Positions 5,200 through 9,929 of a DNA stretch of 64,000 nucleotides are shown piece by piece. The position numbers and the translations under genes are program-made. The notes beneath the pieces were generated by a model. The model saw nothing but the letters and a program-made list of their open reading frames with translations, made no database searches and was not told the DNA's origin. Location of the stretch: positions 1,488,001 to 1,552,000 of the forward strand of contig JAIQGG010000002.1 in assembly GCA_020072785.1 (NCBI GenBank), given 5' to 3'. This DNA comes from Terriglobia bacterium (GTDB lineage Bacteria; Acidobacteriota; Terriglobia; Acidiferrales; UBA7541). Positions within the stretch are counted from its first letter, which is position 1, and the number at the start of each line of letters is the position of its first letter.

Positions 5200-5220
5200 C
5201 ATACCGTATTATGGTATGAT
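5200..5220. promoter_or_regulatory. Inverted repeat overlapping a -10-like element
   Basis: CATACC (5200-5205) and GGTATG (5213-5218) form a perfect dyad with a 7-nt AT-rich centre. The 3' arm overlaps TATGAT (5215-5220), a good -10 hexamer, 38 nt before the selenoprotein start codon. No convincing -35 box is seen. A repressor or activator operator over the promoter is a reasonable reading. Confidence 0.4.
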
Positions 5221-5257
5221 CACTGCGCCTTGCTTGCGCTTGGATAAGGAGACTTCA

Positions 5258-5827
5258 ATGGCCCGCATCAGCTATGTGGCTCCAGAGACGATTGCCGACC
5301 CGCAAATACGCCAGTGGCTCGAGGCCTCGATCAAGGCCGGACGACCCGGGCCGGAGAATCAGGCCATTCGCGCGCATCAGCCGGACGTGATGCGTTCATT
5401 CACCACGACCTTTGACATGCTGTTCAAGAAAGACAAGGGCACCGTGGAGTGGGAGCTCAAGGAACTGCTGCGGGCCTACATCGCCATCAGCATGTCCTGC
5501 AATTATTGAATGAACCAGGGATCCGCGCAGGGTGCGCGGAACAAAGAAGACCGGATGTCGGAAGTGCATAAGTACGAAGAGTCCGAGCGGTTTACGGCGC
5601 GCGAAAAACTCGCCTTGAGCTATGCCGACGCCATCATGTGGGCTCCGGAGAGAGCGGACGATGCCCTGTGGCAGCGGCTGCACGCCGAATTCAGCGAGCC
5701 GCAGATCGTGGAGATCGGGTACTGGACAGGATTCATCTTCGGCGGGCAACGCTGGCTGCGCACGCTGCAGACCCAAGCCGGTGAACTTTCCGCATTTCTC
5801 GCGCAAAAGAGAAACGAAAAAGCATAG
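5258..5827 (+). CDS. AhpD/carboxymuconolactone decarboxylase-like selenoprotein (UGA read as Sec at residue 84)
   Basis: Read through one in-frame TGA (5507-5509), this is a single 189-residue AhpD-like protein. The ATG at 5258 follows an AAGGAGA ribosome site. Residues 1-83 carry the family N-terminal part (ELKELLRAYIAISMSCNY). After the stop the same frame continues without a gap into NQGSAQGARN, then ERFTAREKLALSYADAIMW and FSEPQIVEIGYWTGFIFGGQRWL, the usual C-terminal half. Family members have a redox C-x-x-C here; this gene has C81-N82-Y83-TGA, so TGA stands exactly at the second Cys. A hairpin 19 nt downstream has the geometry of a bacterial SECIS. AhpD-like selenoproteins are a known class. 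Expected role: thiol/selenol peroxidase or peroxidase-recycling activity in the cytosol. Alternatives are a nonsense mutation or sequencing error, or a restart at the ATG directly after TGA. The dctA-like gene begins 2 nt after its stop codon. Confidence 0.75.
5507..5542 (+). promoter_or_regulatory. Predicted bacterial SECIS element with Sec UGA codon
   Basis: The TGA at 5507-5509 is followed 19 nt later by a 5-nt apical loop AGGGT (5529-5533) closed by six consecutive G-C pairs, CCGCGC (5523-5528) with GCGCGG (5534-5539), plus a T-A pair (5522/5540). Bacterial SECIS elements need a stem-loop whose apical loop starts about 16-37 nt after UGA and has a G among its first two loop bases. Both conditions hold (A then G). 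The loop ends in T, as GGU/GU-type loops often do. Confidence 0.72.
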
Positions 5828-5829
5828 CC

Positions 5830-7095
5830 GTGACCCGCCGCCCCTGGTACAGAGACCTTTACGTGCAGGTCCTGGTGGCGATCGCCCTGGGCATCTTCGC
5901 CGGGCACTTCTTCCCCCAAGCAGGCATAGCCCTCAAACCGCTGGGCGACGGTTTCATCGCGCTCATCAAAATGATGATCGGGCCGGTGATCTTCTGCGTG
6001 CTGGTGCAGGGCATCGGGTCCATGACCGACATGAAGAAGGTCGGGCGCGTGGGCTTGAAGACGCTGGTTTATTTCGAAGTGGTGTCCGTGTCGGCGCTGC
6101 TCATCGGCATGCTGGTGGCGCAAGCGGGGCAGCCGGGCCGGGGATTGAACATCAATCCGGCATCGCTCGACGCCAAATCAGTGGCCGCGTACGTCAGCCA
6201 CGCCAGCCGCGCCAAGGATGCCGGACTCCTCGCCCGGCTGCTGGAAATCATTCCCGCAACGTTTCTGGATGCCTTCGTTCACGACAATGTTCTACAGGTG
6301 GTGCTGATCGCCATCCTCTGCGGCTTCGCCATTTCGCGCCTGGGAGAGGGCAGCGCCCGGGTGACGCGCGCGGTCAGCGTGGCCAGCAAAGTGTGTTTCG
6401 GCATCATCCGCATGATCGTGCAACTGGCGCCCATTGGCGCATTTGGAGCCATGGCCTTCACCGTCGGCCGTTACGACCTCGCCGCGCTCTCCAATCTCGC
6501 CAAGCTGATTGGAACTTTTTATCTCACCAGTGTGATCTTCGTCGTGCTCATTCTCGGGAGCATCGCGTACCTGGCGGGCTTTTCGCTCTTCCGTTTTCTC
6601 GCCTACATCAAGGACGAGCTCCTGATCGTGCTGGGCACCAGCTCGTCGGAAACCGTGATTCCGGACATGCTCCAGAAGCTGGAGCGCCTGGGCGCGCCGC
6701 GCTCGATTGTGGGGCTGGTGTTTCCGATGGGCTACAGCTTCAATACCGACGGAGCGAATATCTATATCACCCTGGCGGTGCTCTTCCTGGCGCAGGCCAC
6801 CAACGTGCATTTCACGCTGGGGCAGGAGGTGCGCGTGCTGCTCTTCGCCATGATTGCGTCGACGGGAGGCGCGGGCGTGCCCGGCGGAGCTTTCGTGAAG
6901 GTGGCGGCGGTGCTCAGCGTCTTCCCCGAAATACCCGTGCAAGCGCTGGCGCTTCTGCTGGGAGTCGACAAATTCATGAGCGAATGCCGGGCCTTGACGA
7001 ACGTCGTCGGCAACGGCGTGGCCACGATTGTGGTCAGCCGGTGGGAGGGCGAACTGGACGTGGCGAAAATGCGCGAGGTACTTGGCGGCAAATAG
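5830..7095 (+). CDS. dctA: Dicarboxylate/amino acid:cation symporter, DctA type
   Basis: 421 aa, DAACS family, an inner-membrane sodium- or proton-coupled importer of C4-dicarboxylates or acidic amino acids. The conserved second half is intact: the first re-entrant loop serine motif SSSE (271-274), the TM7 motif GYSFNTDGAN (301-310) and the second re-entrant loop TGGAGVPGG (345-353). Hydrophobic segments fit the usual eight helices. The start is a GTG at 5830, two nucleotides after the selenoprotein stop, so it is probably translationally coupled; no strong ribosome site is visible. The exact substrate cannot be read from sequence. Confidence 0.87.
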   Translation: MTRRPWYRDLYVQVLVAIALGIFAGHFFPQAGIALKPLGDGFIALIKMMIGPVIFCVLVQGIGSMTDMKKVGRVGLKTLVYFEVVSVSALLIGMLVAQAGQPGRGLNINPASLDAKSVAAYVSHASRAKDAGLLARLLEIIPATFLDAFVHDNVLQVVLIAILCGFAISRLGEGSARVTRAVSVASKVCFGIIRMIVQLAPIGAFGAMAFTVGRYDLAALSNLAKLIGTFYLTSVIFVVLILGSIAYLAGFSLFRFLAYIKDELLIVLGTSSSETVIPDMLQKLERLGAPRSIVGLVFPMGYSFNTDGANIYITLAVLFLAQATNVHFTLGQEVRVLLFAMIASTGGAGVPGGAFVKVAAVLSVFPEIPVQALALLLGVDKFMSECRALTNVVGNGVATIVVSRWEGELDVAKMREVLGGK

Positions 7096-9035: not shown

Positions 9036-9929
9036 ATGGAGCCTGTGAAGCTGATCGAGTGCCCGCGCGATGCGTGGCAGGGATTGCCGGAGTTTATTCC
9101 GACGGAGTACAAGGCGGAATATCTGAAGGAGCTGGTGCTGGCGGGATTCCAGCACATTGACGCGGTGAGCTTTGTTTCGCCCAAGCATGTGAAGCAGATG
9201 GCGGACAGCGAAGAGGTGATGAAACTGTTGAATACTTCCCTGCCCGCGGACGTCGCGCGGCCGGAGATTATCGGGATCGTGGTGAATGAAAAGGGGCTGG
9301 AGCGGGCGCTGGCCACGCCGGGGGTGACGACGATCGGCTACCCGTACTCCATTTCGGCGTATTTCCGGCGCGCCAATGCCAACATGAGCCGCAGCGAATC
9401 GCGGGCACTGGTGGAAAAGCTGAGGAAGGGGACGGCGGCGGCGGGACGCGACCTGGTGATTTACATTTCGATGGCCTTCGGGAATCCCTACGACGAGCCG
9501 TGGGGGCCCGAGATCGTGGAGGAAACGCTGGAGTGGCTGAAGGATATTCGGGTGCGCACGGTTTCGCTGGCGGATACGGCCGGAAATGCTGCGCCAGAGC
9601 TGGTGGGTACGCTGTACAACCAGGTGAAGAACCACGTGGCGGGGATCGAGCTGGGAGTGCACCTGCACAGCCGGCCAGAGACCATGGAGGCCAAAGTGTT
9701 GGCGGCGTACGCGGCGGGCTGCCGGAGATTCGATAGCGCGCTGACGGGACTGGGCGGGTGCCCCTTTGCGGGGGACGAGTTGGTGGGGAACCTGGCCACG
9801 GAGACGGTGCTGGCGGCGCTGCGCACGGCGGGCGGAGATCCCGGTGTGAGCTCCGAACGCCTGGCCCGCGTCATCCAGATGAGCAACGAAATTCGCCAGA
9901 AATACGCGCCCGCGCCGCTACCCAATTGA
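9036..9929 (+). CDS. mvaB: Hydroxymethylglutaryl-CoA lyase
   Basis: 297 aa TIM-barrel lyase of the DRE-TIM family. It cleaves (S)-HMG-CoA to acetyl-CoA and acetoacetate, the last step of leucine degradation. Metal/catalytic residues: the R11-D12 pair in ECPRDAWQG, H209-x-H211 (GVHLHSRP) and the catalytic Cys C242 in GLGGCPFAG. The His-to-Cys spacing of 31 equals that of human HMGCL. The first-strand motif is ECPRDAWQG instead of the commoner VGPRDGLQN, an acceptable variant. The ATG at 9036 lies 1 nt after the carboxylase stop, so the two are co-translated. Confidence 0.88.
   Translation: MEPVKLIECPRDAWQGLPEFIPTEYKAEYLKELVLAGFQHIDAVSFVSPKHVKQMADSEEVMKLLNTSLPADVARPEIIGIVVNEKGLERALATPGVTTIGYPYSISAYFRRANANMSRSESRALVEKLRKGTAAAGRDLVIYISMAFGNPYDEPWGPEIVEETLEWLKDIRVRTVSLADTAGNAAPELVGTLYNQVKNHVAGIELGVHLHSRPETMEAKVLAAYAAGCRRFDSALTGLGGCPFAGDELVGNLATETVLAALRTAGGDPGVSSERLARVIQMSNEIRQKYAPAPLPN

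Follow-up and report, generated by a model that had tools for sequence, protein, structure and literature searches.

Bacterial AhpD-like selenoproteins with a CxxU motif, related to COG2128 (YciW) and TIGR01926, were first reported from the Sargasso Sea and have been known since 2005 (PMC1088965, PMC9312934). The published model of the bacterial SECIS (bSECIS), which we used as reference, describes an apical loop of 3–9 nt on a stem of 4–16 bp, with a G at loop position 1 or 2, usually then G or U, a distance of 16–37 nt from UGA to apical loop and a folding energy of −7.5 kcal/mol or lower (PMC13188914). The gene considered here lies in a stretch of 64,000 nucleotides (the window; G000:C2:1488001-1552000) from the 3.73 Mb genome of a Terriglobia bacterium. 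Its predicted product has in common with the known AhpD-like selenoproteins the position of selenocysteine (Sec) as second residue of CxxU, the AhpD/CMD fold and the existence of Cys-coding homologues (PMC1088965, PMC9312934). It differs from them in being divergent and in adjoining a gene for a DctA symporter and, unlike the main AhpD-like group, the protein lacks SH four residues after CxxU. Because the kind has been on record for so long, the gene adds a member to it rather than a new mechanism; this member belongs to a divergent branch, found in Acidobacteriota, whose proteins fall short of the cut-offs of curated models. Ordinary gene callers would break the gene in two at its UGA. The hairpin that follows this codon is by far best explained as a functional SECIS of bacterial type in the gene of a divergent AhpD-like selenoprotein, a reading that we regard as very probable from the comparisons below. 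The features are collected in Table 1.

Table 1. Coordinates of the features discussed, numbered from the first base of the window
Feature	Position	Strand	Details
Near-palindrome upstream of start	5200..5222	+	CATACCGTATTATGGTATGATCA, element CCGTATTATGGTATGATCA; similar form upstream of four relatives' genes
Predicted AhpD-like (COG2128/TIGR01926-related) selenoprotein gene	5258..5827	+	189 residues, U84; profile matches, predicted AhpD fold
CxxU redox motif	5498..5509	+	TGC AAT TAT TGA = C81-N-Y-U84; aligns with CxxC of homologues
UGA, predicted to be read as selenocysteine	5507..5509	+	In-frame; purifying selection on both sides
Spacer from UGA to stem	5510..5521	+	12 nt; same register in 27/28 UGA relatives
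Predicted bacterial SECIS hairpin	5522..5540	+	UCCGCGCA 5522-5529 / GGG loop 5530-5532 / UGCGCGGA 5533-5540
DctA-type sodium:dicarboxylate symporter (SDF) gene	5830..7095	+	GTG start 2 nt after selenoprotein stop

The UGA is in frame within the 189-codon gene, and the codons 3′ of it read M N Q G S A Q G A R N. An earlier note on this DNA had described a hairpin of 7 bp closing an AGGGU loop that begins 19 nt after the UGA; the sequence and RNAfold agree with that layout in every detail, and the codons read after the UGA bear out its observation that the stem overlaps the coding sequence for GSAQGARN. When the innermost A–U pair is counted as closed, the same hairpin is a perfect 8 bp with the triloop GGG, 20 nt from the UGA. 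Both the minimum free energy structure and the centroid are this hairpin, with a folding energy of −13.8 kcal/mol for the UGA and downstream bases (45 nt in total). Loop, stem, distance and energy thus all comply with the published bSECIS model, as do the leading bases of AGGGU or GGG. The hairpin also resembles the consensus in its 3-nt (or 5-nt) loop, its stem of 7–8 bp and its N-G-G-N-N arrangement with the outer two bases pairable (PMC13188914). No feature of it falls outside the model; among the relatives of the gene, the hairpin is short, bulge-free and at near-fixed spacing.

Taken as a single sequence, the hairpin gives a weak signal, and energy statistics do not set it apart. A 71-nt stretch has a z-score of −1.23, with 25 of 200 shuffles folding equally well or better. 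Both strands of the window together contain 1389 UGA triplets, of which 138 (about 10%) are followed 16–37 nt downstream by a hairpin of at least 7 bp, G–U pairs allowed, and 88 (about 6%) by such a hairpin with G at loop position 1 or 2; hairpins in the exact register follow only four. Rfam, searched at gathering thresholds, returned no match at 5522–5540. Because one sequence alone was unconvincing, we compared relatives, and the significance of the hairpin rests on these comparative data.

Searches of genomes from the order, class and phylum yielded homologues of two kinds, 28 distinct ones with UGA and 16 with a Cys codon, which were aligned on the UGA/Cys position; viral contigs contained no relatives that we could find. 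Of the 28 UGA-coding sequences, 27 form all seven inner pairs in identical register, and each of these has a GGC or GGG loop. The exception (G044b), a very distant sequence on a very long branch, has a hairpin of 7 bp, offset from that register by about two bases. Only one of the 16 Cys-coding relatives keeps the stem (Fisher's exact p = 1.1e-9, a value that is descriptive only because the rows are related), and this distribution supports the SECIS proposed in the earlier note. Over the 27 in-register sequences, 93.1% of cells are paired, and two-sided changes occur in 44 cells at six of the eight pairs; only 12 of the sequences form the outermost pair. The covariation score is 0.584; shuffled data give 0.200, and sliding the partner strand never gives more than 0.153. 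Kinship of the sequences inflates shuffle-based statistics, but the slid controls, together with repeated Sec/Cys switches, argue against kinship as the cause of the signal.

The earlier note had looked to compensatory changes in close relatives that keep the UGA as support for a functional element, and such changes are present both in the closest informative relatives and in a paralogue pair, two base pairs in each case, as well as in the two-sided cells of the whole set. Between the window gene and its G034 counterpart, stem and loop are identical, even though synonymous differences beyond the hairpin amount to about 0.6 per site, and within the seven hairpin codons the sole synonymous change falls outside the stem. 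In G036 and G335 the two outermost pairs have changed from U–A to A–U and from C–G to U–A, both compensated, while the peptide over the hairpin has changed from SAQGAR to IAQAAR. The second AhpD-like gene of the same genome (G000:C2:200119-200523, L022/L112; motif D-C-H-Y-U), itself predicted to encode a selenoprotein, has its own covarying hairpin, with the stem CUCGUCUG-GGC-CAGACGAG; that of its G034 counterpart, CUCGCUUG-GGC-CAAGCGAG, differs by two compensated pairs.

These relatives amount to a natural experiment on a bacterial SECIS, and an unusually clean one, because Sec and Cys have repeatedly been exchanged. The tree calls for six interchanges, of which at least four are required by branches with good support, and at the invariant redox position UGA alternates solely with TGC or TGT. 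Across the switches the hairpin stays where UGA stays, and most Cys-coding genes lack it. Two Cys-coding genes, G331 and G308, are found among UGA genes on the tree and have lost the stem. G214 (L062), also Cys-coding, carries an intact SECIS-like hairpin; since it is placed inside a UGA clade, we read it as a likely case of recent Sec-to-Cys replacement with a relic SECIS.

The protein evidence extends across the UGA. In the window gene an AAGGAG precedes the ATG, and the MARISY start is conserved in all five subfamily members. Relatives that keep the UGA share 95, 81 and 77% protein identity within the genus, the first being from a Terriglobia MAG, and one from a different family of the same class shares 77%; identity to the window protein is 80% for G034 and about 77% for G036 and G335. 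Where estimable, dN/dS is about 0.06–0.28 on both sides of the UGA, and such purifying selection implies that the part after the UGA is translated too. At the level of sequence, then, read-through into a conserved protein is established. C81 and C/U84 are invariant in 26 aligned relatives, and the motif in the window gene is S-C-N-Y-U.

Profile matches to this protein have small E-values yet fall below the curated cut-offs, with 36 bits against 81.8 for TIGR01926, 54.8 against 310 for NF053654 and 22 against 23 for Pfam CMD. We therefore file it as AhpD-like, related to but outside TIGR01926, on which a member of a related group (L040) scores 107.8 bits. The best NCBIfam match, over residues 1–154, is NF053654 (GroundWater_YciW, a YciW-related (seleno)protein), the name of which implies Sec/Cys exchange; the score is so far below the cut-off that the protein is not a member of that equivalog. 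Five sequences gave only a poor structure model, and one built from 26 relatives, which is confident (pLDDT 90.5), was used instead. Its predicted fold is that of AhpD, with PDB entry 2prr as best match (TM about 0.75); the AhpD-core peroxidase-related structures 2prr and 6k40 and the debrominase Bmp8 match at TM about 0.72–0.76. C81 and U/C84 occupy the place of the AhpD CxxC. The reactive residue of AhpD is the second of the two cysteines, and by analogy Sec84 would be the catalytic residue.

The genome possesses a complete Sec-decoding trait, as judged from its genes: SelA, SelB (over the cut-off), SelD and tRNA-Sec. SelB reaches the cut-off in 34 of the 36 genomes of the genus, and the trait is therefore general there. 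The selD gene (L121, G000:C1:111200-112165) has an in-frame UGA of its own, and selenophosphate synthetase is thus predicted to be itself a selenoprotein. When a covariance model of the hairpin was run against the genome, the window gene scored 38.9 bits, the paralogue 35.5 and the next match 15.9. Since both top genes were in the training set, what this search shows is that the genome has no third gene with an element this similar, and no further SECIS of this layout was detected beyond the two AhpD-like genes. In those matches at or below 15.9 bits that were examined, either the UGA was not at the expected place or there was no plausible read-through protein. The hairpin after the selD UGA differs in layout, so that no match to the model was expected from it. 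There are two tRNA-Sec genes, 3.6 kb apart (L009:6065-6163 and 9714-9812; G000:C2:1112064 and 1115713), with a gene of 956 aa between them on the opposite strand. They are identical at 83 of 95 positions, and the first is further from its relatives (81/95 identical to G035, vs 93/95 for the second). Most of the genus has a single tRNA-Sec gene; G015 has two in close tandem.

Could the UGA be an ordinary stop, either between two short genes (5258–5509 and 5510–5827) or within a pseudogene? An ORF lister does find both halves, and the second opens with ATG at 5510. At that codon, however, G034, G036 and G335 have GCG or TCG, neither of them a start, and protein similarity and purifying selection span the UGA, which is exchanged only for Cys codons at the redox position; we judge this reading very improbable. 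Chances are slighter still that the UGA is recoded in some other way, for example as Trp or Cys by a change of code, with no need of the hairpin. This has to be raised because the UGA is read through, but we found no support for it, and the complete Sec machinery, including a SelD with an in-frame UGA, the alternation with Cys codons and the company that the hairpin keeps with UGA all speak against it.

A different objection is that conserved amino acids and GC-rich codons by themselves produce the hairpin. The poor single-sequence significance and the frequency of lenient hairpins after UGA triplets in the window speak for this. Synonymous recoding, however, yields all seven pairs in about 0.4–0.6% of trials with the codons of the window subfamily and, gene by gene, in just 0–1.7% of trials. 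Moreover, pairing is retained under differing peptides (SAQGAR, IAQAAR, TALARR, LVWARR and TAQAAR), whereas it is lost in Cys relatives with similar ones (TQLAHK in G331 and TQIAQK in G308). Taken with the two-sided changes and the association of hairpin with UGA, these results leave the objection hardly any credence. Under the SECIS reading, SelB carrying Sec-tRNA-Sec would bind the hairpin, 13–31 nt past the UGA, during translation of the 5258–5827 mRNA, and selenocysteine would be delivered at codon 84. The product would be a CxxU AhpD-like thiol/selenol oxidoreductase. Binding by SelB, actual Sec insertion and enzymatic activity, whether of peroxidase or disulfide-type redox character, are presumed here from known families.

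A DctA-type gene lies directly 3′ of the selenoprotein gene in all five subfamily members, which span two families, with a gap of 2–3 nt or, in G335, a GTGA overlap. This conserved adjacency suggests a physiological role for the selenoprotein. In the stretch fetched around the closest Cys relatives, G057 and G603, there is no DctA gene. The wider neighbourhood, with methylmalonyl-CoA mutase upstream and acyl-CoA carboxylase downstream, is common only to the closest relative, G035, and is not shared in the stretches fetched from G034, G036 and G335. It is conceivable, though we think it unlikely, that the UGA and SECIS double as a selenium-dependent gate for the symporter gene, with Sec insertion allowing re-initiation at the GTG and termination at UGA lowering symporter synthesis; dicarboxylate uptake would then be tied to selenium supply. 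No sigma-70-like promoter was found near the window gene. When fewer than three mismatches are allowed, the near-palindrome upstream of its start has a single occurrence in the genome; it may plausibly be an operator.
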